Under the pieces are notes generated by a model, which had not been told where the DNA came from, searched no databases, and saw only the letters and a program-made list of their open reading frames with translations. Both the position numbers and the translations under genes were made by a program. A stretch of 28,796 nt of DNA from an uncultured Actinomycetes bacterium (GTDB taxonomy: Bacteria; Actinomycetota; Actinomycetes; Mycobacteriales; Nakamurellaceae). This document shows, one piece after another, positions 2,451-28,075 of this stretch. The stretch's first letter is position 1, and each line of letters opens with the position of its first letter. The DNA lies in NCBI GenBank assembly GCA_937926105.1, contig CALANS010000164.1:1-28796 (forward strand). The letters are read 5' to 3'.

Positions 2451-3881
2451 ATGGTCTATGCAGACAGCCCCAGGCCCGGGCTCGGCACGATCGTGCCGAA
2501 AGGACGCCAATCGGACGCGATCTACTTCGCATCCGACAGCGACATGGTCGCGCTCGGCAGCGCTGGCACTGGGAAGAGCACCATGGCGGTCCTTCGAGCC
2601 CGGTATCTCGCTGACCCAGACTGCTCGAACTTCGGCCCAGTCCTGTTCGTCACCTACAACAACACACTCGCCCAGTACCTCCGGCACCTCGTACCCGGCG
2701 CGAACGAGAGCATCCACGTCGAGACTTACTCCAAGTTCGCCCGGGGCTACCTGGCCAGCATCGGCAAGATGCCCACTCGGAACGGCATTCTCCAGAACGG
2801 CCATTTGCGCAGCATGGTCGCCGGCGCCGTCAGGGAGATCCGGAAGGCGTACAAACCAAGCCCCTTCTTCGACCTCGACACCACGTTCTTTGAAGACGAG
2901 ATCGCCTGGATAGCCGACATGGGCATCGTCGATCTCCAGCACTATCTCGACATCGAACGCATCGGCCGCAGACGTGGTCTGAGCGAGTCGCGTCGTAAGG
3001 CCGTGTGGGAGGTCCGCACCGCGTACCTCAAGGCCCGCGCAGCCGCGGGCATCCCGTACGACTGGAATGACATCGCAACTGCCGTACTCAACGGGCTCAA
3101 GAGCGACGCGAGACCACGCAACTACCGGCACGTCATCATCGACGAAGGCCAGGACCTTTCTCCCGAGGCAGTCAGGTCACTGAAGGCAGCAGTCCAGCCG
3201 GGCGGCACTGTCAGCTTCTTCGGCGACTACCACCAGCAGATCTATGGCCAGGGCCTCTCGTTCCGCAGCTGTGGACTCGAGATCACCGCAGTCGAACGGT
3301 TCCAGGACAATTACCGCAACACAGCCCAGATCGCCAGAGTGGCAATCGCGATGAGCGGCATGCCGCACATGGACGCGGACTCCCAAGACCTGGTTGAGCC
3401 GAAGGAACCGTCGGCCGGCGGTACGAGGCCAGCATTGGTTGAGTGCAAGAGCTACTCCGCCGAGATCGCCGAGATCCAGCGCATCGCTGTCGACCAGGGT
3501 GACGCGAGCGTCGTTGGAATCTTGACCCGGACCTGGTCTGACGCTGCGAAGGCTGTGCATGGAATGGAGAAGGTGCACGTGCTCCCGAAAAACGGAAATA
3601 CTCCTTGGGACCCGACTCCGGGCATCTATTACGGTACGTACCATTCTGCGAAAGGTCTTGAGTTTGATGTCGTTCTGATGCCGTTTTGTACCGACGTCGA
3701 CATGCCCAACAAGCAGGTCGTCGATGCGTATGGCAACGCTGACGCTGCCGCCCGCGAGGGGAAGCTTCTGTACGTCGCGGTCACCCGCGCCAAGGCCGAG
3801 CTGACGGTCACGTACTCCGGCGCCATCACTCCGCTTCTGCCGGTGGACGAAGGACTTTGGCAGCACGAGGAACTCCTGTGA
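2451..3881 (+). CDS. UvrD/Rep-like superfamily 1 helicase
   Basis: The 476-residue protein carries the SF1A helicase motifs in order: Walker A GSAGTGKST (36-44), motif Ia LFVTYNNTLAQYL (65-77), motif II HVIIDEGQDLSPEA, motif III VSFFGDYHQQIYG, motif IV around FQDNYRNTAQIA, motif V YHSAKGLEFDVVLM and motif VI LLYVAVTRAKAELTV. It is much shorter than UvrD or PcrA (about 700 residues), so accessory subdomains 1B/2B are reduced. Members unwind or translocate on DNA using ATP. ATG 2451 was chosen because AGGAGG ends 8 bases upstream. Its stop overlaps the GTG start of the DarT-like gene (GTGA), so translation is probably coupled. The box II sequence DEGQD replaces the usual DEAQD. Confidence 0.9.
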   Translation: MVYADSPRPGLGTIVPKGRQSDAIYFASDSDMVALGSAGTGKSTMAVLRARYLADPDCSNFGPVLFVTYNNTLAQYLRHLVPGANESIHVETYSKFARGYLASIGKMPTRNGILQNGHLRSMVAGAVREIRKAYKPSPFFDLDTTFFEDEIAWIADMGIVDLQHYLDIERIGRRRGLSESRRKAVWEVRTAYLKARAAAGIPYDWNDIATAVLNGLKSDARPRNYRHVIIDEGQDLSPEAVRSLKAAVQPGGTVSFFGDYHQQIYGQGLSFRSCGLEITAVERFQDNYRNTAQIARVAIAMSGMPHMDADSQDLVEPKEPSAGGTRPALVECKSYSAEIAEIQRIAVDQGDASVVGILTRTWSDAAKAVHGMEKVHVLPKNGNTPWDPTPGIYYGTYHSAKGLEFDVVLMPFCTDVDMPNKQVVDAYGNADAAAREGKLLYVAVTRAKAELTVTYSGAITPLLPVDEGLWQHEELL

Positions 3882-4594
3882 CCGCGAACACGGCGCCGAT
3901 GACGGTCGCGGAGAAGATCGCCGAGATCGGGCTCACGAGAGTTGTGCATTTCACCCCGGCGAAGAACTTGCACCACATCGTGGCCGACGGTCAGATCACC
4001 TCGAACAAGGCCTTGGCCGAGTACTCCCCGGAGTACTTCGACCCGACCGACCTGTATCGGTTCGAGGACCATCCCGAGATGACGTGCGTGACGTTCACCT
4101 ACCCGAACCCGTTCTACTTCGAAAAAGCACGGACGCAGCCGCGATTCCGCCGGTTCCCGGACTGGGTGTGCTTGCTCATCAACGCTGAAATCTTGACCCG
4201 CGACGGCGTGATGTTCTGTGAGTGCAATGCCGCCAAGAATGCAGGCGCCCACTTGAAGCCTGGCGTCGAGGGCCTCAGAGGGTGCTTCGCCGACACGACT
4301 ACTCTCGGATACCAGCGGGGACTGGCACACGATCCGCTCGCTGCGACCGACCTGCAGGCCGAGGCGCTCATTCCTGGGCCGATTCCTTTGTCGGACATCA
4401 CCGCTATCGTCACGCCGACCGGTAAGGCCGCGGGAGATGGGCACGCACAGCTCCGGGCTGGCGGCCTGGACCCCGACCAATTCACGTGGACGGTGTCAGA
4501 GATGATGTTCACCAAGGGGCCTCTGACGAACGCAATCCAGTCGGGCCAGCCCGTCGGAGAGACCTTGTGGACTCGAGCCAGAGAGGAGAACTAA
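3878..4594 (+). CDS. DarT-like DNA ADP-ribosyltransferase (toxin)
   Basis: Protein of 238 residues with DarT/DUF4433 features: N-terminal RVVHFTPAKNLHHIVADGQI (21-40), a region CVTFTYPNPFYFEKAR (70-85) corresponding to the NAD-binding segment, and QAEALIPGPIPLSDI (160-174), in which Glu162 occupies the position of the catalytic glutamate. DarT enzymes use NAD+ to ADP-ribosylate thymidine in single-stranded DNA and act as toxins or antiphage effectors. The GTG at 3878 is chosen because GAGGA sits 6 bases upstream and GTGA overlaps the helicase stop; an in-frame ATG lies at residue 8. The stop codon overlaps the ATG of the next gene (TAATG). Expected antitoxin DarG (macrodomain) is absent; the next gene encodes an ADP-ribosylglycohydrolase instead. 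The DNA target is inferred from the family. Confidence 0.8.
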   Translation: MTANTAPMTVAEKIAEIGLTRVVHFTPAKNLHHIVADGQITSNKALAEYSPEYFDPTDLYRFEDHPEMTCVTFTYPNPFYFEKARTQPRFRRFPDWVCLLINAEILTRDGVMFCECNAAKNAGAHLKPGVEGLRGCFADTTTLGYQRGLAHDPLAATDLQAEALIPGPIPLSDITAIVTPTGKAAGDGHAQLRAGGLDPDQFTWTVSEMMFTKGPLTNAIQSGQPVGETLWTRAREEN

Positions 4595-6354
4595 TGCCCA
4601 ATCTTAGATCTCTCGGCACGCGGTCGCGAGGCATTTTCCTCGGAGCAGCGGTCGGTGACGCGCTCGGCTGGCCCCAGGAACAGAACTCCAACATCGTCGG
4701 CGGAGACCGGAACCGATACGTCGACGCCACTCCGGACTTCCGCGACTGGCAGCGGTACGGCGGTGGTCGATACCAACAGTACATCGACCCAGTGCAGGCC
4801 GGCAGCTACAGCGATGACACGCAGCTCATGTTGGCCACCGGTCGCGCGCTTCAGTCTGAAGACTGGTTTGCGGCACTGACTCGACGGGAGCTTCCGCTAT
4901 TCCCGCTGTACTCACGGGGTGCGGGCGGTGCGACGTTGCGTGCGTGCCGCATGTGGGCGACCGGGCTGGGGCCGTGGGCGATCGGGACGACGCAGAAGGC
5001 GCAGAAGTCGACCGATTCGTACTTCAGGGCCGGTGGGAACGGCGTCGCTATGCGCATCGCTCCGCACGCCATAGTGCACGTCGCACATTCAACTCGGGAA
5101 CTCGTCGCTTGCGTCGTCCAAGATGGTATCGCGACGCACGGGCATCCGCGGGCCCTCGTCGGGGCTGCGACCTTCGCGGTCGCTCTGCACATACTGGTCA
5201 ACACCGAAGGCACCCTGGAATTTGGTGAGCTTACCGCTCGGGTTGTGTCGGACAAGTCGTGGCAGTCGCCGGAGACGCTCCTGAGGCGTGTTCCTCCTGA
5301 ATGGATGCACGTTGCCGCTGAGGAAAGTCGCGACCTCAGGGGCAATTGGACTTACGCCATCCAAGAGATGCTTGAAATGCTAATGCTGATTGGGGATGCT
5401 GCACGGGCCGGCACGAGAGGTGACGACCTCGGGACGCTCGAGCGGCTCGGCGTTTTCAATAAGAAAATTAACGGTTCCGGCACCATCACCGCCGCTGCTG
5501 CAATCTACCTTGCATCGCGGAACGCACCACGGCCCATGGGCGGAGTCCTTAGGGCCGCGTTCGTGAAAAACGCTGACACCGACACGCTGGCGTCGATGAC
5601 GGGCGCGCTAATGGGTGCATTGCATGGGCCTGACTGGTTGGCTGATCTGAGAGTGCGGGTCCAGGACCGTGAGTACATCGAGCGCATGGCTGACGACTTG
5701 ACCGCGCGTGCACTGGGCGAGGAACGCCTTGTCTTGGAGATGAAGGACTTCGTCAACGATCACTCCATTCGACGGTTCAAGCACCAGCTCGAAGTCGGCG
5801 AGATCACAGGCCCAGTGCAGTTGCCGGACATGCGTCAAGGGCGTCTGGTCCGGAACTTCGCGCTTGATTCGAGTGGCAACACCCGTGCGCACCGGTGGGT
5901 CCTAGAGGTCGATGGCCAGACGCTATTCGTCGACCAGTCGGCAAAGTTGCCGATCGTCGATGTCGAGGATCGCATCCGACTGTCGGGGTTCAAGGCGACG
6001 CCGCAAGGTGCTCAGCCCGAGTCCATGGAGAGGACCACGGAGCAAGGAAGGTTCATTGGACTAACGCTGCGTGTGAACGACCTGGGTTCGATCGCGAGCT
6101 TCTACTCCGGAGCCCTCGGTGTTTCTGTCGAACGTGTGGGCTCTCGTGAACTTCTGGTGGGTGGGGCTGTGAGGTTTCTCGAGGACCCGAAGGCCACGTT
6201 TGGGATGTCGATTGTTCTGCTTGCGCTCGAGGTGCCGGACCTACCAGCGGCGGCCCGCCGGCTTGGACATAGTTCACGAGGGCCAGCCGATAGATTCCGG
6301 TCGACCGACCCTGCCGGGCACGACCTAGACATCAGGCCGATTCGGAAGCGATGA
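4594..6354 (+). CDS. ADP-ribosylglycohydrolase with C-terminal VOC-like domain (putative antitoxin)
   Basis: Protein of 586 residues. Residues about 10-345 are an ARH/DraG fold: GAAVGDALGWP (17-27), metal-binding SYSDDTQLM (71-79), RAGGNGVAMRIAPHAI (145-160), THGHPRALVGAA (181-192) and NADTDTLASMTGALMGALHG (326-345), so both metal-binding aspartate clusters are present and catalysis is plausible. The linker (350-485) matches nothing I know. Residues 487-582 look like a glyoxalase/VOC module (IGLTLRVNDLGSIASFYSGA, ending DPAGHDLDI). ARH enzymes remove ADP-ribose from targets. Start ATG 4594 has GAGAGGAGAA just upstream and overlaps the DarT stop. In context it probably reverses DarT modification, i.e. 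acts as the antidote; this is inference. The ARH-VOC fusion is unusual. Confidence 0.85.
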   Translation: MPNLRSLGTRSRGIFLGAAVGDALGWPQEQNSNIVGGDRNRYVDATPDFRDWQRYGGGRYQQYIDPVQAGSYSDDTQLMLATGRALQSEDWFAALTRRELPLFPLYSRGAGGATLRACRMWATGLGPWAIGTTQKAQKSTDSYFRAGGNGVAMRIAPHAIVHVAHSTRELVACVVQDGIATHGHPRALVGAATFAVALHILVNTEGTLEFGELTARVVSDKSWQSPETLLRRVPPEWMHVAAEESRDLRGNWTYAIQEMLEMLMLIGDAARAGTRGDDLGTLERLGVFNKKINGSGTITAAAAIYLASRNAPRPMGGVLRAAFVKNADTDTLASMTGALMGALHGPDWLADLRVRVQDREYIERMADDLTARALGEERLVLEMKDFVNDHSIRRFKHQLEVGEITGPVQLPDMRQGRLVRNFALDSSGNTRAHRWVLEVDGQTLFVDQSAKLPIVDVEDRIRLSGFKATPQGAQPESMERTTEQGRFIGLTLRVNDLGSIASFYSGALGVSVERVGSRELLVGGAVRFLEDPKATFGMSIVLLALEVPDLPAAARRLGHSSRGPADRFRSTDPAGHDLDIRPIRKR

Positions 6355-8643: not shown

Positions 8644-10170
8644 TCAGGAACCACCGCGGCCATAGCGCATCCAGTCGTAGGCCACTGTGGCCTTCGCGAA
8701 CTGGGTAGCCCACCAATCTTGGGACCGCAGCGCATTGTTGCGGGTAAGGAACTCCCGAAGTCCTTCAACATCGTCTGTTAGCGACGGCAACTTCATGGCG
8801 TTGTTCAGGACGCCTTCCACTCCTTTATCCGCTTCCAGTTTGGCCAGTGTGAGGAGATTTGGCTCCGGCTTGAGCTTGCCGAAGATCCCCGCGTACTTGT
8901 CCGCACGCTTCTTAGCTGCCGCGTTTACCGCGACGTTGGGGAGCCACTGGCCGTCCTTCCAGAGGCCCGCGCCGACCAGGAACTTGAAGACGGGCACATA
9001 GGTAGTGATCGCGTGCTTAGCCAGTGCTTTGCCGACGACCAGGTCACAGGGCAAGCCACGGTCGGGGCTCTCAAGCACCTCGTCCATGAGATCCCACCGC
9101 GTGAGGCCGACAACGCCGACCGCGGTCATCTTCGCGCCGACTCCAAACACCACATCTAGGGTGTCGCTGTCGTCCTCGATCGCGGAGACCGCAACCAGAC
9201 GTCCGTCGGGGTCGTTGCTCTTCACTAGCTCGAAAACTTGTTCCTTCAGGATCCGGAGAATGCGGGCAGGCATAGCTCGGTCTCGGGCGCCGAGCGCGGT
9301 AAACACTTCGGTGAAGTCCGGCACCGTGGCACGGATGATGGGCAACGACACCCCGCTCACGTTCATCACCGTGGTGGCGATGTCCGGCGGCTCCGCCGGA
9401 TTCCACTCCACGAAGATCAGCCGATCCTGCAGTTTGGAGACGTTCTCCGGTCGAAGGCCAGTGATTAGCGACCCCAGAAGCGCCTGGATGTTTGGGTCAC
9501 CGAGGCTGTAGCCGAGGAAGACCACTGGGTGCTCTACGAAGATGGTGGCAAGCTTGGCTGCGAGGTAGGCGTTCCGGGCGTTGTAGTCCGCATAATCGTC
9601 GGCGGTGAGGATGAGCGAGTCAGGTCGGCGCTCCGACCCATGGATGTAGTAGATCTCGGCGATGCCCTGTGTGTCGGAAAAGAGCAACTCGTCCTGTCCA
9701 ACGAAGGGCCGGAACTCTGGGAAGACTTCCAAGAGCATCCGGTCGTAATTCGTGGTGATGATGCCGTCAATCACGGCATCTTTGAGCAGTTCGAACTCAT
9801 CCTCAAGGCCGCGCGGGACGGAGAAGGAGTCCATCGCTGTGCGGGTGTACTTCGCTACCTCATACTTCAGGGGCGAGTCCCGGGCGGTCACCGAGTCCTT
9901 CCAGTCCTTCACGGAGTCCGCGAACTCCGGGTCACTCCACCACTTGTCGTAGAAAGCGTCCGCGATCATGGACGCCGCCTTCGGGTAGTCATCGCCCGCC
10001 GCGCCGCGGTAGTACTCGAAGGGCTGGCCCGTCATGTCGGCGAAGTGGCTGAGCAGGTCCTTTCAGTCGCCCAAACCGACGTTGCGGCGGGAAAGTCCCG
10101 CACCGACGAAGAGGTAGGGGCCGGCCAACGAGTGCAGGTGCTCGCGAAGATAGTCCTCGACCTTAGCCAT
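8644..10170 (-). pseudogene. SIR2-domain protein with an in-frame TGA
   Basis: From the ATG at 10170 the frame reads [30 protein letters not shown], then TGA (10063-10065), then continues in the same frame to 8644 as KDLLSHFADMTGQPFEYYRG. The SIR2 NAD-binding GAGxS motif is thus separated from the rest: TTNYD (about 139-143), the catalytic-type IHG (about 176-178) and VFLGYSLGDPNIQALL. Related SIR2 proteins usually have D-W-x-x-L here, so TGG to TGA is likely. The C-terminal half (after about 245) matches no family I know. SIR2 defence proteins deplete NAD+ on phage infection. A product starting at ATG 10035 (463 residues) would lack the NAD-binding motif. A sequencing error is possible. Confidence 0.8.
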
Positions 10171-11786: not shown

Positions 11787-14700
11787 GTGAATGAACCCAT
11801 GGCGGATGCGTCGCAAAGCGCTTCGTCCGGTCAGCTCGTACCGCTGACGCCAGAGTACCGCGCCGCCGATCACAAGTACTACGTAGAGCTGATCGAAGGC
11901 GCGCTCGGGCAGGGCGACCGCATCAAGAACATCGCCGTCACCGGCGGCTACGGAGTCGGCAAGAGCAGCGTCTTGCGTCAGGTCGCATCGCTTCACAAGA
12001 AAAAGGTCGTTGAGGTGTCGCTCTCGACCCTGGGCTTGCCCGAGGGCGACGGAGGTGGCGAGAACTCGACAACTAATCGCATCCAAAAGGAAATAGTCAA
12101 GCAGCTTCTGTATCGCGAGCGACCCGAGAAGATGCGGGGCTCGCGATTCCGTCGGCTCGGCCGGTTCGGATTCTGGCGGGGCCTGGCAACGGGAGCACTC
12201 GGCGGTCTGGCAGTCTGGCTGACCTTCTTCCTTGCTGGTTGGACGGGAAACCTCGCTGCCCTGTTCCGTGTGAACAGCCCCAGCCTCTGGTTCCAGCTAG
12301 TCCTGTTCATCGTTCTGACCGCGGCCACTTTCGGGGTCCTCGCCCTGGCGCACAATCGGATCGCGGTCAAGAGCGTCAAGGTCGCGACCGCGGACATTGC
12401 GCTGTCATCGGCCAGCACGACCTACTTTGACCAGTATCTCGATGAGATCATCTACTTCTTTGAGGTCACGAAGCGAGACCTCGTTATCTTCGAGGACATC
12501 GACCGGTTTGATGATCCCCAGATCTTCGAGACGCTGCGTGCACTCAATACTCTGCTCAACGCATCGAAGCAGCTCTCGCGGAGCATTCGCTTCATCTATG
12601 CAATTAAGGACAGTATCTTCGCAATACTTGGGTCCGACGACAACCAGCGAGGCGCGGATCCCCGTCGTGCCGTCTTGGAAGTCGCGCCCGCGAACCGCAC
12701 CAAGTTCTTCGACATAGTTATCCCTATTGTTCCGTTCATTACGCATCGGAACGCTCGTGAACTGGTAGCCAGAGTGTTGAGCGATGTCGATGCGAAGATC
12801 AGCCCCGGATTAATCGATCTCTGTTCGCGGCACCTGACCGACATGCGTCTGGTGAAGAACATTCGCAACGAATTCGTCGTCTTCCGCAAGAAGGTCGCGA
12901 TCAGCCAGCACGCCGCGCTGACCGACGACAGGCTACTCGCGATGATGCTGTACAAGAATCTCCAGCTGGCCGACTTCGAGCAGATCCCTGCTGGACAGAG
13001 CAAGCTGGACAAGATCTACGACGCGAGTCGCCGCATGGTTAGGCAAGGCGTCAGCGAACTGGACAACACGGCTGCCGAGCTGACGAAGCGATTGACCGCG
13101 ATCGATGGCGGCGCGGAGCGGAGCGAGGAGCTCGGGAGTCGGCTCGCGGAATACGCGGGCCGGCTCGCGCGACAGGTATGGCCCGGCCGCGACCCTGGTT
13201 TTCAACTCGCTTTCGGCAGCATTACAAAGGGGCCCAACGACGACTTAGGCGATCCAGGGATGTGGCGCGCGATCGCCGACGCCGGCCCGGACCAGAGTGT
13301 CGTTCTGCACTTCTCGAGCAGCGGTCAGCAAGTAGCCATCAGCAAGACCGATCTGAGCGAAGTTGTCGGCGATCCGCTATCGTCCGCCGACTGGGACGCG
13401 GCTGCGAGAGATCAGACCGTTCGTCGACTCCAATCAGCTGGTGAGGATCGTGAGTTTCTCGTACACGCCAGCTACACGGACCTCCTCGACAGGCCGGATC
13501 TCGTCTCGTTCGAAGACGGCGCGTTCCGGGGCGTATTGCAGCGGCAACTCGGCGATGGTCTCGCCCGTGAACTCATCGAGGGAGGGTTCCTCGACCAGAA
13601 CTTCGTGTTGTATACGTCGAACTACTACGCTGATAGGGTCAGCATTCAGGCGCTGAACTTCATACTGCGCAACGTCGACCGAAACGTGATGGACGTCGAT
13701 TACGTTCTCGCCACGGACGACGTACAGGCGATCCTGGCCGAGCGTGGAGACGACATCCTCCGGGAGCGTTGCGCCTTCAACGTGAGTCTGCTCGACCAGC
13801 TCCTGAGCGACGGCGACCCCCGCGCTGAGGTGTTATTGGCCACATTGTCGCGGACTGCTGACTCGGAAGCGTCCGCATTCTGGACCGCCTATCTCGCGGG
13901 TGGGCAGCAGGTGGATGCGGCAATCTCGCGCCTGGCGCCAACCTGGCCCAAGATCATTACATTCTTGGTGAACCGCGAAGACCTCGATGACACTCGGAAG
14001 ACAAAGCTTGTAGATCTCGCACTAGGCCAGGTTGACAGCTCGATCGCCTACGCCGTCGACTCCGACGCAAGGACCTTCATCGAGAGGGTAGCGCCACAAC
14101 TTGGGTCGCTCACGCGCGAGCAGGACCCCAACAGGGCAGAGTCCTCGGTGTCCGTGCTCGGTCGTGCCCGCGTCCGGCTAGCCTCGCTGGGTCCGTTAAG
14201 CGAACCCATTCGTTGCGCCGTCGTCCGCGCGAGCGTGTACGAGATTTCAGCTGAGACACTCCGACAAGCGGCCGGAGGCAACGCGATCGCACTAGATCAA
14301 CTGCGAGACCCGTCGCCAGCCGTATACCAGTACATGATCGAGAATATTCGGCACTACTTGAACGCCCAGTCGGGTGTCGCGGGTAGCGCCAGCCTCGTCG
14401 GCACCGACTCAATGCCGACGGTTCTCAATGATCTTGTCGAGAACGCGACCGACGACCTGAGCGCTGTTATCGATCAGGCCGCTCCGTCGGCAAGGGTGTC
14501 GGATCTTGCAACCGTGCCTAAGCAGACGTGGCCTGTGCTCGCGGCCTCGGACCGATTCCCGACCAGCTACGCGAACGTCGTCGCCTACCTAGAGTGGTCG
14601 CGCACCATCGACCAGTCACTCGGCAGTCTGCTCGCTCGGACTGGCTCGGTGACCGAACTCGAGAGTATTGGCCAAGCGGCACGTGCGGCGTTGGGCGTCC

Positions 14701-15416
14701 GTCTCTTAAGTGCAACGAGCGGCATTCCCGATCCGGCGGTCAGGGTTACGCTCGTCGCTGGTCTTGGGCTCGATGAATATCTCGCGCCGAGTGACGTTCC
14801 TTTCGAGGACGGGCCACTGGCTGGCCTCTTGCTAGAGCATCGCTTGATCGAAGACAATCAGGATTCCTTTGCGCTTGTCCAAGGACGAGGATGGGACACC
14901 GTCGGTCCGTTCGTCGAGACCTCGGTGAAGTTTTCGGCATACATGACACCCGAGATTGTCCCCGCCGCACAGGTTGTTGAACTGCTGCAAAGTCCTCGCG
15001 TTGATGCCGCCGCCAAGGACCGGATCCTCGAAGGATTCGACACATACCTGCCAACGGGCAGTCCCCCAGACGCCATCGCGGCTCTGGCCCGCTACGCGTT
15101 GGGGCGGAAGCACCGCTTCACCCAGCCCCAAATCCTGAGGATCTCCGCCGCTGGCATCGATCGGGACTTGTCCACCAACCTGCTGGCATTGTCCATCACC
15201 GGTATGACGATCGAGGACTTGTCACCCATCGCAGACGCAATTGGTGGCTGGTTCAAGTCATTGTTCGCACGAGACGGCAAGCGACCGAAGATCAAAAACA
15301 CTGCCGCGAATCGCGTCATCGCCACACACTTGAAAGAGATCGACGAAGTAAGCTCGTTCAAGGAGTCGATGGGCGAGATCGAGATCCGCCTCAAGCGATC
15401 CAGCTCAGAGCAATAG
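11787..15416 (+). CDS. YobI-type membrane-anchored P-loop ATPase
   Basis: A 1209-residue protein. N-terminal P-loop domain: Walker A GGYGVGKSS (53-61), two hydrophobic segments inserted at about 132-154 and 168-188, then Walker B in KRDLVIFEDIDRFDDPQIFE (229-247) and sensor-like SIRFIYAIKDSIFA (266-279). The 'DLVIFEDIDRF' block and the inserted membrane hairpin are characteristic of the YobI-like NTPases, which resemble KAP/STAND ATPases and are suspected conflict or defence proteins. The remaining ~850 residues are a long helical region with no domain I can name. Two ATGs (11787, 11799) are possible starts. It appears monocistronic, with the next gene on the opposite strand. Role in phage defence is an inference from family and neighbourhood. 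Confidence 0.8.
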   Translation: MNEPMADASQSASSGQLVPLTPEYRAADHKYYVELIEGALGQGDRIKNIAVTGGYGVGKSSVLRQVASLHKKKVVEVSLSTLGLPEGDGGGENSTTNRIQKEIVKQLLYRERPEKMRGSRFRRLGRFGFWRGLATGALGGLAVWLTFFLAGWTGNLAALFRVNSPSLWFQLVLFIVLTAATFGVLALAHNRIAVKSVKVATADIALSSASTTYFDQYLDEIIYFFEVTKRDLVIFEDIDRFDDPQIFETLRALNTLLNASKQLSRSIRFIYAIKDSIFAILGSDDNQRGADPRRAVLEVAPANRTKFFDIVIPIVPFITHRNARELVARVLSDVDAKISPGLIDLCSRHLTDMRLVKNIRNEFVVFRKKVAISQHAALTDDRLLAMMLYKNLQLADFEQIPAGQSKLDKIYDASRRMVRQGVSELDNTAAELTKRLTAIDGGAERSEELGSRLAEYAGRLARQVWPGRDPGFQLAFGSITKGPNDDLGDPGMWRAIADAGPDQSVVLHFSSSGQQVAISKTDLSEVVGDPLSSADWDAAARDQTVRRLQSAGEDREFLVHASYTDLLDRPDLVSFEDGAFRGVLQRQLGDGLARELIEGGFLDQNFVLYTSNYYADRVSIQALNFILRNVDRNVMDVDYVLATDDVQAILAERGDDILRERCAFNVSLLDQLLSDGDPRAEVLLATLSRTADSEASAFWTAYLAGGQQVDAAISRLAPTWPKIITFLVNREDLDDTRKTKLVDLALGQVDSSIAYAVDSDARTFIERVAPQLGSLTREQDPNRAESSVSVLGRARVRLASLGPLSEPIRCAVVRASVYEISAETLRQAAGGNAIALDQLRDPSPAVYQYMIENIRHYLNAQSGVAGSASLVGTDSMPTVLNDLVENATDDLSAVIDQAAPSARVSDLATVPKQTWPVLAASDRFPTSYANVVAYLEWSRTIDQSLGSLLARTGSVTELESIGQAARAALGVRLLSATSGIPDPAVRVTLVAGLGLDEYLAPSDVPFEDGPLAGLLLEHRLIEDNQDSFALVQGRGWDTVGPFVETSVKFSAYMTPEIVPAAQVVELLQSPRVDAAAKDRILEGFDTYLPTGSPPDAIAALARYALGRKHRFTQPQILRISAAGIDRDLSTNLLALSITGMTIEDLSPIADAIGGWFKSLFARDGKRPKIKNTAANRVIATHLKEIDEVSSFKESMGEIEIRLKRSSSEQ

Positions 15417-22648: not shown

Positions 22649-24592
22649 TCAGACTGTCAGCTTCAGGAACAGTGTCTCGAACCGATCCAGGGTCTCATCG
22701 TCGACCTGAGCGAGGAACTCAGTCAGGTTCCCGGTGAGATAGTGCGCAGGCTTTGCGTGATCGAACTGAGCATGCCCTGCGACGCTGATCCGTCTCAGAA
22801 TTGGCTCGGACGTCACTGGCAGATCGGCTTCGCTGATCGGTGCGACCGCGCGATCGTAGAGCCAGAGGTAGTCCTTAGTCGTGAACAGATCCTCGATGTC
22901 GGCGGTCGCTGGCAGGCCGTGGCCAAGCTTTCCTAGGACGACGATCTTGTCTGCGTCGATTCCGACAGCCTCGGCAGCAGCACTAACCTTCTTCGCTGTC
23001 GAAACGGTATCCGCGCCGTCAACGAGCGCGCGCACGTCGAGGCGCCGTCCCATGATGGCGACGAAGGCAGGCATGTTGCCAACGCCGCCCACGGGAATGA
23101 TCGAGAGCCGAGGGTCCAGGCCGGTCCGCCCAAGACGGGCGAGGTGGTCGGAGAGGCGCAGGAGGTAGACGAAGTCGCTGCTGCCCTCGACGGCCAGGTG
23201 CGGCCCGGTGCCGAGGAAGAGGTGCTGCGACACCGAGTAGCCGATCGCTGCCTCGACGGGCAGGATCGTGTGGCGGTCGGCGGAGAGGTCGACCGGCGTA
23301 ATCACGACGCCAAGCTCAGGGATTTCTCGTGTGGCCCGATCGTGGATGGCACGCATGGTTTCGTAACGTGTCGGGTCAAGCATGTGTTGTGAGTGGGTCG
23401 TATAGAGAACCTGCTGCCTCGCGCCAAGCTCATCGACTATATAGCTTAAAAAGTCCTTCTGTGCCTCGCCGTGAAGGCTCATTGCAGGCTCGTCGAGTAG
23501 CACGACAACGCGTTTCGGATCGTCGCGGTAAACGCTGAATGCCGCCAAGAATGAGAAGAACCAACGGAATCCTGCAGATCGCAGCTCAAAGTTGGTGCTG
23601 ACGCCGCCGTGACGCTCATCGCGCAACTCGATTTTGAGGAACCGATGGCGAATAGGGTGTCCGTCCGAATCGTTGCCCACGATCGGCATGTCGGTATCGA
23701 AGTCGACCGTTAGGGCGTCGTTGGACTTCCAGTACTTGAAAACCTGATCGGTTAGATCGGCACCGGCTGCTTGCAACTCTGCCTTGCGGCTCGTGTAGTT
23801 CTCGTCTAGCAGGCTAGCGGGATCCTCACCGGCGAGGCGCAACAGCGCTAGCAGTGCTTCGTCGCCGCGATTGCGCTTGCCTGAGGCAGCTCGCGCGGCA
23901 AGTTCCGTCAGGTCGCAATCGCCGGGTAGAAGAGCATAGTTGTCGAAGTAGAAGAACCGCGGGAGCAGTGGCTCGATTTGCTGATGCTGCTCCTCGCTAA
24001 TTTGCTCCGTCGTGAGAAGCACATAAGGCTTAAGCGCGTTGGGAAGCTTCGCGACGGCGTTCGAGCGGGCCTGTTCGCTCGCGGCTTCGAGGTCTTTCGC
24101 CAACTGGCGAGCTGCACTGCCGACCTCATCGAGAGTATGCCCAGTCAGCGCATCCCGGTCCGCATCGTCGACACCAATGTCCTTACACGCGGCGGCAACG
24201 ATGGCTGCGACGTCTGCGTAGATGTCGATGCTCAGCTGGCCGTCGTAGCTGCGCGCAGCGACGACTTGGGCTCCTTCTGGCGGTTCGAAACCAAGGATGG
24301 GCTTGAGAGCAGCTACATCGCCCGGTTCGAGGTCGAACCATGCGGTGATCGGCTCCACCTCTCCCAGGTTTTGCGCCTGTCGATCACGCGACAAACGTCG
24401 TCGCGGGTACTCGGTTACAACATCGAACACGTCGCTCGCGTTCGCCGGGTTCAGCCGGTGCAGCGCCTTGAGCACGGTCGTCTTGCCCGACTCGTTCTTT
24501 CCGACGAGGCAAGTCACATGTTCCTCAACGTCCATCGTCTGCGCGTCGATAAAGTTGCGAAACCGCTCGATCTGGATCTGGGTCAGGATCAT
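22649..24592 (-). CDS. OLD-family ATP-dependent endonuclease (AAA + TOPRIM)
   Basis: Protein of 647 residues. The N-terminal ABC/SMC-like ATPase begins ILTQIQIERFRNF, with Walker A GKNESGKTT (31-39), Walker B VVVLLDEPAMSLH (362-374) and H-loop TTHSQH (398-403). The C-terminal TOPRIM domain has LAVEGSSD (Glu469), IIPVGGVGNM and RALVDGAD (Asp525), the metal-binding acids. OLD nucleases are used in phage exclusion, for example P2 Old and GajA. There is no UvrD-type GajB next to it; the only such helicase in the window is 19 kb away in another operon. The ATG at 24592 has GAGGG 6 bases upstream and TATACA (24605-24610) as a possible -10. Confidence 0.9.
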   Translation of the reverse strand: MILTQIQIERFRNFIDAQTMDVEEHVTCLVGKNESGKTTVLKALHRLNPANASDVFDVVTEYPRRRLSRDRQAQNLGEVEPITAWFDLEPGDVAALKPILGFEPPEGAQVVAARSYDGQLSIDIYADVAAIVAAACKDIGVDDADRDALTGHTLDEVGSAARQLAKDLEAASEQARSNAVAKLPNALKPYVLLTTEQISEEQHQQIEPLLPRFFYFDNYALLPGDCDLTELAARAASGKRNRGDEALLALLRLAGEDPASLLDENYTSRKAELQAAGADLTDQVFKYWKSNDALTVDFDTDMPIVGNDSDGHPIRHRFLKIELRDERHGGVSTNFELRSAGFRWFFSFLAAFSVYRDDPKRVVVLLDEPAMSLHGEAQKDFLSYIVDELGARQQVLYTTHSQHMLDPTRYETMRAIHDRATREIPELGVVITPVDLSADRHTILPVEAAIGYSVSQHLFLGTGPHLAVEGSSDFVYLLRLSDHLARLGRTGLDPRLSIIPVGGVGNMPAFVAIMGRRLDVRALVDGADTVSTAKKVSAAAEAVGIDADKIVVLGKLGHGLPATADIEDLFTTKDYLWLYDRAVAPISEADLPVTSEPILRRISVAGHAQFDHAKPAHYLTGNLTEFLAQVDDETLDRFETLFLKLTV

Positions 24593-25655: not shown

Positions 25656-26321
25656 TCAGCTTGAGGCCCACTGCGCGAGCGTCAAAGGGTTCAGTCGCTG
25701 CCCGAAGCGCAGGTGCTTGCCCGCGTTCAGTTGGTTGGCAAGGTCCGCCAGCTCCAAAGGGCTCGTACCGGGCCACTGGTTGCGGATGGCTTCGACGGCC
25801 AGCTGGTTTGGCACCAGTATGTGGCCACGATCGCGCATGTAGGTGAGAGCCTGGACTGCCATCGAACGTTCCCTGGAGTCGATGAGCCCTTGATTGAGCA
25901 CCGGCAACAGCGAAATCCCCTCGATCATCGCCTTGATCGGAGCGCTTGCTTCAGGCACGGGAGGGACAGGTTCGCCACCGAGGAACTCGACGCGATGGGC
26001 TGTGATCCAGGGCGCGTGGCCCTTGGAACCGCGGACCACAGCGAGCCCGTCGAGTTCAGCGCGACGCTCGATGTTAAGTACTTCGTCCAGGTGCAGGCAC
26101 CACGCGATTACTACGCCGGTTCGAGCCCGCGCGGTGTATCGACTGTGACGGTTGCTGGTCGTCCCAATGGGCCAGCCGGTGTGCTCCAGCCATGGCGACG
26201 CCTCGATCGCGCTCGTGCTTGGGCCAATGATCGTAATTGGGGAATCTTTGCCGGCCCACGTCGCGGCGAGACGGAAAGAGTCGCGTAGGTCGACGTGGGA
26301 AGTGATGTAGGCGCGGCGCAT
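25656..26321 (-). CDS. Hypothetical protein, paired with the 26411 gene
   Basis: Protein of 221 residues starting MRRAYITSHVDLRDSFRLAA. Seen: an alternating strand/helix pattern (SPITIIGPST, GVVIAWCLHLDEVLNIERRA, LAVVRGSKGHAPWITAH) and a C-terminal helical part (SMAVQALTYMRDRGHILVPN, PLELADLANQLNAGKHLRFG). I cannot place it in a family; the first half might be an alpha/beta domain, without an obvious nucleotide-binding loop. It follows the 554-residue gene on the same strand after about 90 bases, so the two may be one transcription unit. It is convergent with the 24874/25362 genes. Start at 26321 is the first ATG of the frame. Confidence 0.65.
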   Translation of the reverse strand: MRRAYITSHVDLRDSFRLAATWAGKDSPITIIGPSTSAIEASPWLEHTGWPIGTTSNRHSRYTARARTGVVIAWCLHLDEVLNIERRAELDGLAVVRGSKGHAPWITAHRVEFLGGEPVPPVPEASAPIKAMIEGISLLPVLNQGLIDSRERSMAVQALTYMRDRGHILVPNQLAVEAIRNQWPGTSPLELADLANQLNAGKHLRFGQRLNPLTLAQWASS

Positions 26322-26410: not shown

Positions 26411-28075
26411 TCATCCGGCCGTTGCTGTTGAAATCACCATGGCGATGCTGTCGACTGCGCCGATCAGTTTGACGCAGATGTTCTCAAAAATTTCCGTCGG
26501 TAGAGTCGCACCGCCCGCTACGCGGGCAAGCGCCTTATCGGCGGAGCTACCGGTGTAATGGGCAAAGCCACCCTGTGAGCGAAGGTCTTGCAGTTCGCGC
26601 AGCGGCTGCACTGCGTCCTCGGGACCGTCCAGTTCATCGACGTACTGCTGTAGGAGGGCGAGGCTCTTCGCATCCCTGTGCGGCTCGGTGCGCAGCACTT
26701 TCCTGAGCCGTGAGGAGTCGATGCTGTCGACGAGAACTTTTGACAGCGTGAGTAGGGGGCCCTGCAGGGCGCTCCTGTCGCTGACAACGGGGGGATGCAG
26801 GGCTGCCCACTCGGTAGCCGTGGGTTCGGCGAGCGGTCGCCATAAAGGCCAACCCAAACGACGCTGCGATGCGTTGTTTGCCCGACCGAGCGCCGCTCGG
26901 ATGTCCCGCACGACATCGGGGCTGGACGCCACCTGGTTGAGCCGCTCACGGCGGAGCTTGCCTTCATCGGGATCGCCACCTGCCGGAGCCACGTTGTGTG
27001 CCCGCCAGTGATCCCACTCCCGCCATGGCATGCGAGAAAGGTCATAGAGATCGACTTCCACGAGATTGTCGGAAGTTCGCCCGATGGACAGGCTCCAGAC
27101 ATGCAGGCAGGAGATGCGACTTCCGGTGACGGTATACCGGCGTGGCTCTGCGAGATAGCGATCGAGCACCTGGGCGTTGAAGTAGATCCGGGTCCAGAAG
27201 TGGGGGCCGGGGCTCCCGTCCACCCCGGTGTTGTCGGTCGTGGGCTGGACCGTCAAGGGACGTCCTGTCGATGCGTTGAGGCCATAAATGAACTCAGGGT
27301 AGTCATCTGGCTCTTCGTCGGTGCACCATGCTGGACCTGGCGCGCCGTCTGCCGGGAGGACAACGTACTGGCCGTGCAGTGAGCTCGCGGCCAGCGGCTT
27401 TCCGCCATCGGCACCGTCGTAGTCGTAGACCTGGAATTCCATCGACGCCCAGCCGCACGCCAGTGGATGTTCCTCGCGCTCCACCTCACTTGTACCCGGA
27501 TGGTCTTGATCGACCTGGACGGCAAGCAGCATCGCTCTGCCTCGAAGGTGTAGGTAGTGACGAAGAGCGAGTGCCCGGACCTCGACCGCGTAATCGTCGG
27601 GCGCGGCTACGCGCACCCTTGCCAGTTCGACGTCCCGTCCAGCCGAGTCGAGATAGATCCACTGGTCGCCTCGGCGAATGGCTCGCCAATACCAAAGGAA
27701 CGGCAGCGCCCACTCCACGGCGGGTACGGTCGCAGGCTCCTGCCATCTCACCTGACAAAAGAACTCTGCACACCCACCGAACCGATCGGCCATCCCATCG
27801 TGAAAGATCCCGTCAAATATCTCAACCTCGCCAACCTCCCTGGCCACGCACTGCGGCCGGGCCAGCTCTGTATCGACATCTTCGATGGGTATGAGTGCGC
27901 AGCATCGAACGTCCGATGCCGGGCCAGGCGTTAGTTCAACGATCCGGACCCAGTCAACCGGGAACGGTGCGATCGACCGCATCGCGTCGACAGGCCACCA
28001 CTCCAGATGGCGACCAGCCGGAGCGAACTCGGCAGCTAGCGAAGTTCCACTGGGATTGCTCACGGGATCCATCAC
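26411..28075 (-). CDS. Large hypothetical protein with possible C-terminal HEPN-like motif
   Basis: Protein of 554 residues, soluble. Two blocks stand out: a central one, FWTRIYFNAQVLDRYLAEPR (293-312), ISCLHVWSLSIGRT (321-334), VDLYDLSRMPWREWDHWRAH (341-360), and a helical C-terminal part ending LRELQDLRSQGGFAH (492-506), in which Arg499-x6-His506 fits the R-x4-6-H pattern of HEPN-type domains. I recall similar uncharacterised proteins with 'DLYDLSRMP..E..HWR..N' motifs but cannot name the family. Two adjacent ATGs (28073-28075, 28070-28072) are possible starts. It probably forms an operon with the 25656 gene. Defence involvement is a guess from neighbourhood. Confidence 0.7.
   Translation of the reverse strand: MMDPVSNPSGTSLAAEFAPAGRHLEWWPVDAMRSIAPFPVDWVRIVELTPGPASDVRCCALIPIEDVDTELARPQCVAREVGEVEIFDGIFHDGMADRFGGCAEFFCQVRWQEPATVPAVEWALPFLWYWRAIRRGDQWIYLDSAGRDVELARVRVAAPDDYAVEVRALALRHYLHLRGRAMLLAVQVDQDHPGTSEVEREEHPLACGWASMEFQVYDYDGADGGKPLAASSLHGQYVVLPADGAPGPAWCTDEEPDDYPEFIYGLNASTGRPLTVQPTTDNTGVDGSPGPHFWTRIYFNAQVLDRYLAEPRRYTVTGSRISCLHVWSLSIGRTSDNLVEVDLYDLSRMPWREWDHWRAHNVAPAGGDPDEGKLRRERLNQVASSPDVVRDIRAALGRANNASQRRLGWPLWRPLAEPTATEWAALHPPVVSDRSALQGPLLTLSKVLVDSIDSSRLRKVLRTEPHRDAKSLALLQQYVDELDGPEDAVQPLRELQDLRSQGGFAHYTGSSADKALARVAGGATLPTEIFENICVKLIGAVDSIAMVISTATAG

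Follow-up and report, generated by a model that had tools for sequence, protein, structure and literature searches.

What is the function of a DarT-like toxin gene that is joined to genes for an ADP-ribosylglycohydrolase (ARH) and a helicase? The question is raised by a compact three-gene module near the start of a 28,796-nt contig from an uncultured Actinomycetes bacterium of the Nakamurellaceae (GCA_937926105.1, CALANS010000164.1, forward strand), the whole of which we refer to as the window. DarTG systems fall into two classes that differ in the base that is modified and in the superfamily of the hydrolase, and the known classes use a macrodomain or a NADAR protein (PMC11543638; PMC9503650, section 3.8). 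An earlier note on this DNA read the locus as a possible DarTG variant with the ARH as antitoxin. The comparative evidence, a predicted DarT fold together with regular co-occurrence of the three genes, upholds that reading, and we consider it probable that the module represents a third class of DarTG-type system, most likely an anti-phage toxin-antitoxin system.

A conserved three-gene unit

We considered whether the three genes are found together more often than their individual frequencies would lead one to expect. Of 394 Actinomycetes genomes taken in one even draw, 25 have Pfam DarT, five have the ARH subfamily of the module (E<=1e-40, with the best three candidates scored per genome) and five have the helicase subfamily, at 491-692 bits with the module helicase profile; the next best helicase reaches 232.5 bits, and some match to this profile at E<=1e-20 occurs in 157 of the 394. 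All three subfamilies coincide in the same five genomes (G001, G002, G128, G167 and G237), where they are adjacent in every case. G001 was the center of this draw, and loci L001, L003 and L022 come from G001, G002 and G167. Among 385 Alphaproteobacteria, Pfam DarT occurs in 20 and the module in two, the draw center G005 and G573, so that over both draws the module is found in 7 of 45 DarT-bearing genomes and NADAR types in three.

The gene order is similarly constant. A profile was built from 36 DarT sequences, and 25 loci were found in the species-genome collection, 21 of which carry helicase, DarT and ARH in this order on one strand. At L021 the contig starts inside DarT and ARH is next, L023 and L024 are DarT-NADAR loci, and the match at L025 is weak and doubtful. 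An overlap of exactly 4 bases joins helicase and DarT in 20 of the 25 loci; the other five comprise one zero gap, one 14-base overlap and three with the first possible start codon further upstream. Hosts of the module include Actinomycetota and alphaproteobacteria, and four of five plasmid loci have all three genes, the fifth (L030) being of the NADAR type. These results confirm the three genes as a conserved unit beyond chance; rare co-occurrence, which would have counted against the earlier note, is not what is seen. Mere adjacency by chance is rejected by the counts in the 394 genomes and, with the order conserved across Actinomycetota and Pseudomonadota, we give practically no credence to the idea of chance neighbors or a lineage-specific accident.

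The earlier note also placed the ARH in the antitoxin slot, and the neighbors of other DarTs agree with this placement. Thirty-six downstream neighbors of other surveyed DarTs include 20 with a macrodomain and three DarT1-associated NADARs, the rest belonging to other or no families, and none matches ARH (PF03747, E<=0.001); two further DarTs have no downstream open reading frame (ORF) to scan. With macrodomains and NADARs among these neighbors and no ARH, the ARH of the module occupies the place of the hydrolase antitoxins.

Layout of the module in the window

All three genes lie on the same strand with overlapping ends, in a module of 3.9 kb (Table 1). Each gene product, a superfamily 1 (SF1) helicase, a DarT-like ADP-ribosyltransferase (ART) and an ARH, is matched by Pfam as the earlier note had assigned it, and both of the start/stop overlaps that it described, GTGA and TAATG, are present in the sequence. 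The GTGA overlap is likely to provide translational coupling of helicase and DarT. Its statement that there is no macrodomain holds for the ten window ORFs scanned against Pfam, none of which has a macrodomain match, the remaining window ORFs lying outside the scan.

Table 1. Coordinates of the module and its parts in the window (aa, amino acids).
Feature	Position	Strand	Basis
Compact SF1 UvrD-like DNA helicase of 476 aa with motor motifs	2451..3881	+	PF13361 E=6.7e-15, PF00580 E=1.1e-11
GTGA, helicase stop and DarT start, 4-base overlap	3878..3881	+	read directly
DarT-family ADP-ribosyltransferase, DarT1-like, 238 aa, GTG start	3878..4594	+	PF14487 E=6.5e-17
Codon of predicted catalytic Glu162 of DarT	4361..4363	+	aligns with E152 of E. 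coli C7 DarT1 (8baq)
TAATG, DarT stop and ARH start, one-base overlap with ATG	4592..4596	+	read directly
ARH/DraG-family hydrolase with two extra C-terminal domains, 586 aa	4594..6354	+	PF03747 E=1.8e-36, residues 13-349
ARH catalytic domain, residues 1-377; S73 D74 D75, D328 D330 T331, E29	4594..5724	+	
ARH middle beta domain, four strands, residues ~385-465, GQT motif around Q442	5746..5988	+	model secondary structure
ARH VOC/glyoxalase-like C-terminal domain, residues ~485-583, varies among members	6046..6342	+	model

A DarT1-like transferase

The window transferase scores 62.4 bits with PF14487, against a Pfam cut-off of 22.5, and the predicted structure of the gene starting at 3878 has the DarT fold and not a different one. 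By profile and fold, DarT1 scores well above DarT2. The DarT1 residues F18, R52, N104 and E152 are matched in the window by F25, R61, N117 and E162, and Tyr80 stands at the position of DarT1 M71; R61, N117 and E162 are present in all 31 module DarTs aligned. The catalytic Glu162, which the earlier note took to be intact, is invariant in an alignment of 36 sequences including that of the window. In a tree of DarT sequences, the module enzymes cluster with NADAR-associated DarTs, apart from the macrodomain-associated ones, but the deep branches are weakly supported. Thus profile, fold and tree place the transferase with DarT1, the NADAR-associated class, rather than with the thymine-modifying DarT2 that is paired with the macrodomain DarG, and make a thymine, DarT2-like reading less likely.

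The module DarTs fall in two clades in this tree. A single clade is not rejected (approximately unbiased test, p-AU 0.2), and a single origin of the module is neither excluded nor demonstrated by these data. Three sequences were dropped before the tree was made (L098, from the same genome as L022, and L021 and L025), as were L087, L092, L094, L099, L103-L106, L118, L121, L123 and L126, whose ORFs are fragmentary, fused or uncertain. L031 and L032, copies of the L029 type, were left out, and L006, L011, L027 and L122 were trimmed to their last 235-245 residues. Among the sequences retained, L096 and L101 have an odd composition and are probably wrong-frame ORFs, and L107, L122 and L125 form long branches. 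One metagenomic sequence, P0082, has an ARH-like sequence after DarT that looks broken or garbled, and was not used.

Dedicated models recognize these proteins poorly. The window DarT scores 19.7 bits with the NCBIfam DarT toxin model, against a cut-off of 150, and 22.5 bits with the PADLOC DarT model, for which the module DarTs tested range from 15 to 31 bits; the module DarTs tested match no PHROGs family. PADLOC gives no match at E<=0.01 for the ARHs of the window, L001 and L029. With such weak NCBIfam and PADLOC scores for DarT, and no PADLOC match for the ARH, defense annotation could well miss the module. PHROGs does match the module ARH, to its ADP-ribosylglycohydrolase family.

An ARH with additional domains

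The window hydrolase scores 126.7 bits with PF03747 and has the predicted ARH fold with metal-binding Asp clusters and a catalytic-loop Glu. The two clusters, to which the earlier note drew attention, are invariant in a 37-sequence alignment (S73 D74 D75 and D328 D330 T331); a count over 36 rows finds D22, E29, S73, D74, D75, D328 and D330 in all of them, and T331 in 34, with Ser in two. The structure model (predicted local distance difference test, pLDDT, 88.7) suggests that the protein extends beyond a plain ARH by a beta domain and a VOC/glyoxalase-like domain (Table 1). Q442 of the middle domain is kept in 34 of 36 rows. By eye, other sequence replaces the VOC-like domain at the ARH C-termini of L002, L004, L008 and L021.

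An ARH beside a transferase could also be understood without reference to DNA, if the transferase targets RNA or protein and the module is another kind of ART-ARH toxin-antitoxin pair. ART-ARH toxin/immunity pairs exist (6dre, 8za7), and ARH-like enzymes act on phosphate-end RNA adducts (PMC11833690). We regard such a target as unlikely.

An intact helicase motor

Of 20 motor positions checked, 17 show the same residue in all 36 helicases aligned, 35 from modules and one from the NADAR-linked locus L189 described below: Q20, G36, G39, G41, K42, D231, E232, Q234, D235, D259, Q262, N287, R289, G402, E404, F405 and R446. Every row has Ser or Thr at position 43, H398 is found in 30 of the 36 and K401 in 35. 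The nearest solved proteins to the window helicase by sequence are HelD, UvrD and PcrA. Neither the window helicase nor that of L029 has a nuclease domain by Pfam, and the '3'-5' exonuclease' label carried by E. coli relatives therefore looks like UvrD-family naming.

A second subtype and the NADAR loci

A DarT on a Salmonella plasmid, a further match of the plasmid search, is only 24% identical, yet it has a helicase on one side and an ARH on the other. Of 5426 complete E. coli genomes, 21 carry the same 3.76-kb segment, always on a chromosome and each at >=99% identity. Two inspected E. coli loci lie beside ychF; a tyrosine integrase and insertion sequences accompany them, and RADAR genes are found downstream. 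Related modules occur on a Cereibacter plasmid typed as conjugative and on a Streptomyces plasmid beside Tn7-like transposition genes. An annotated P-loop NTPase gene lies beside the distant E. coli module (L031, 22081-25983, - strand); in strain SCU-484 (L032) the corresponding stretch carries an annotation of two genes.

The DarT of this second subtype (subtype II) has 903 homologues at E<=0.001 in a large protein collection, and the 120 listed of these include Klebsiella, Yersinia, Xenorhabdus, Acinetobacter, Xanthomonas, Pseudomonas and Rhizobium names. Its profile finds matches at E<=1e-5 in three of 398 Pseudomonadota genomes. One is the module of G005, and another, in G963, is a DarT with NADAR and without helicase. 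The helicase of the third, in G1046 (L189, 525-3334, C116), reaches 307 bits with the module profile and is ~30% identical to the module helicases. This helicase overlaps DarT by four bases, the gene that follows is convergent, on the opposite strand, and matches PF22397 (NADAR-DarT1, E=1.6e-89), and there is no ARH in the 12 kb examined. At this one locus, a related helicase goes with a DarT that lacks an ARH, and the two hydrolases ARH and NADAR are seen to take comparable places beside related DarTs. It is possible that L189 is a transitional form of the module. Nearby ORFs resemble, by eye, a phage-type replication gene and dusB/prmA.

Other DarT-NADAR loci show further variation. In L192 (2081-4621, a plasmid of Deinococcus sp. 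QL22), the DarT match occupies the C-terminal end of a protein of 846 aa, whose gene is immediately preceded by one for an N-6 DNA methylase and followed by a NADAR gene, so that the pair apparently lies inside a restriction-modification operon. The DarT ORFs of L122, L185/L190 and L191 are ~360-370 aa long with extra N-terminal sequence, and L191 adjoins BREX genes.

The L189 arrangement bears on which partner the helicase serves. It might act on the reversal side, working with ARH to find and clear ADP-ribosylated host DNA while DarT acts alone; the helicase would then unwind or strip blocked forks and give ARH access to the adduct. UvrD-type helicases generally serve repair. DarT adducts do need repair, with RecF-mediated recombination and nucleotide excision repair named in the title of PMC7003065. 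Against such a role, the helicase gene overlaps DarT in most loci, and at L189 a related helicase accompanies DarT where ARH is absent; as the first gene of the operon the helicase could not overlap ARH, which makes the overlap alone weak evidence. Because of the overlap and the NADAR-linked helicase, we think it more likely that the helicase supplies substrate or takes part in sensing than that it serves repair, and consider a reversal-side helicase rather unlikely.

Genomic surroundings and viral records

The window holds, besides a serine resolvase, several genes of potential interest. A SIR2-domain protein (8644-10035, - strand; PADLOC PDC-S25, 396.7 bits) is a candidate defense gene, a YobI/Tmn-like P-loop NTPase (11787-15416, + strand) lies near the module, and an OLD/AriA-like AAA ATPase (22649-24592, - strand) has moderate PADLOC matches to several defense ATPases. 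Two ORFs on the - strand, 26411-28075 (554 aa) and 25656-26321 (221 aa), have no Pfam or PADLOC match. A PADLOC scan of neighbors (E<=1e-20) returned 113 ORFs from 20 genome loci, whose surroundings include restriction, methylation, DISARM and other defense matches, as seen without a control set. The 25 families listed of 94 include RmrA, a type II methyltransferase, a type IV restriction endonuclease, DrmA, DrmD, MkoA and PD-T4-6; the families are mostly represented by one ORF each, related PADLOC models overlap, and Pfam also finds ordinary genes such as MFS transporters.

Contigs in a viral collection carry full modules at L162, L187 and L188, and L186 has a short ARH ORF (355 aa). The subtype II DarT profile finds helicase, DarT and ARH together in three of three loci in these contigs, and the helicase profile finds the whole module in at least one locus, one of the 21 listed. 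There are no matches in these contigs with the subtype I DarT profile, or with the L183 DarT as a single query.

We considered whether the distribution of the module might suit a non-toxic function, in which DarT marks single-stranded DNA (ssDNA) at replication and ARH erases the mark without killing. In the M. tuberculosis complex, DarT is reported to coordinate growth and transcriptional adaptation (PMC12170906). The patchy occurrence of the module (5 of 394 Actinomycetes and 21 of 5426 E. coli genomes), its presence on plasmids and its location in defense-like islands fit conflict systems better, and regulation or self-marking seems to us quite improbable.

Proposed function

The most economical interpretation is that modification of ssDNA by the DarT1-like enzyme is toxic, that the ARH is the erasing antitoxin and that the helicase is a partner of DarT. 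The defense genes and mobile elements near several loci, and the modules on viral-collection contigs, count in favor of this interpretation. We suggest that the transferase would use NAD+ to attach ADP-ribose to a base in ssDNA, probably guanine, and so block replication. The ARH, replacing the macrodomain of DarTG2 or the NADAR of DarTG1, would strip the mark from host DNA and thereby neutralize the transferase; tethering to DNA or to partners, or the sensing of a trigger, is the probable task of its middle and exchangeable C-terminal domains. The helicase may track on or open DNA and hand single strands to DarT, exposing its substrate; alternatively, it may activate DarT where foreign DNA unwinds. 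We offer more tentatively, as one possibility, a specific version of this scheme in which an antitoxin of ARH fold takes ADP-ribose off a DNA base, guanine being the likeliest, and the helicase is a motor that brings DarT onto foreign DNA as this unwinds, directing the modification against phage replication and not against the cell; the ARH C-terminal domain would be a sensor or adaptor that can be exchanged.

Several observations weigh against the main interpretation. The main difficulty is ARH biochemistry. According to PMC11833690, S. coelicolor SCO5809 and human ARHs are inactive on guanosine-ADP-ribose RNA, and according to PMC13036486, S. coelicolor ARH-like proteins are inactive on a uridine-ADP-ribose probe, on which human ARH3 has low but detectable activity. 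This weak activity on the uridine probe aside, the literature examined reports no ARH that releases ADP-ribose from a nucleic-acid base, and none that does so on DNA. Either the ARH branch of the module has gained activity on DNA bases, or the module DarT makes a different linkage.

Other points concern the transferase, the helicase and the link to phages. Glu63 of the window stands at the position of DarT1 D54, which is Asp in 27 of the 31 module DarTs. Asn at position 117, with which DarT1 reads guanine, is also found in 16 of 23 aligned macrodomain-group or other DarTs; being common there it is not diagnostic for guanine, and we do not count it as proof that guanine is the target. The deep branches of the DarT tree are weakly supported, at 84/90 for a group comprising all 31 module rows and five of the six NADAR rows, and at 52/49 for the full split that puts module and NADAR DarTs on one side of a branch. 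A helicase is found at only one of the 14 NADAR-type loci (L023, L024, L030, L107, L122, L125, L189 and L190-L196), the distant relative at L189. The neighbor scan, as noted, has no control set for comparison, and 50,697 phage records contain no relative of the window DarT, the L029 DarT, P0302 or P0319. The presence of the second subtype in E. coli chromosomes and the compact size of the module make it directly testable with coliphage panels.

Comparison with known systems

In the open-licence literature searched, a scope that leaves most subscription papers and bioRxiv outside, no account of a DarT accompanied by both an ARH and a helicase appeared. The module resembles DarTG1 (DarT1-NADAR) in that its ART is of the DarT1 type by profile and fold. 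It differs in having an ARH (PF03747) instead of an adjacent NADAR (PF22397), an upstream helicase, and a DarT of 238 aa in the window compared with 208 aa in 8baq. With DarTG2 (DarT2-macrodomain DarG), the module shares an ART of the DarT fold with a catalytic Glu. In contrast to DarTG2, however, the adjacent hydrolase is an ARH by Pfam and fold and not a macrodomain, the transferase groups, with the weak deep support described above, with NADAR-associated DarTs, and a module-type helicase is found at none of the other, non-NADAR survey loci.

The hydrolase shares its fold and metal residues with the ARH/DraG proteins (ARH3, DraG and Tri1-like immunity proteins), but adds the middle and variable C-terminal domains and lies beside DarT in all five genomes found with the ARH profile. 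The ARG-centered antiviral systems predicted by Iyer and colleagues (2022; PMC9503650) also have an ARH-type hydrolase in conflict neighborhoods, sometimes linked to a helicase; they were selected for the lack of a linked ART, whereas the module has an adjacent DarT. Gabija GajB and NERD-UvrD resemble the module in having a UvrD-like helicase in defense operons, as PADLOC matches indicate, but the module helicases are set apart by their scores with the module profile.

If the module is indeed a third class, with an ARH as its hydrolase, all three hydrolase superfamilies can serve as DarT antitoxins, and ARHs would gain a nucleic-acid-base substrate. A dedicated helicase would in turn bear on how DarT meets ssDNA at the right time and place. 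The module looks DarTG-like in the way it would work, yet fails the hydrolase test that defines each of the two named classes.

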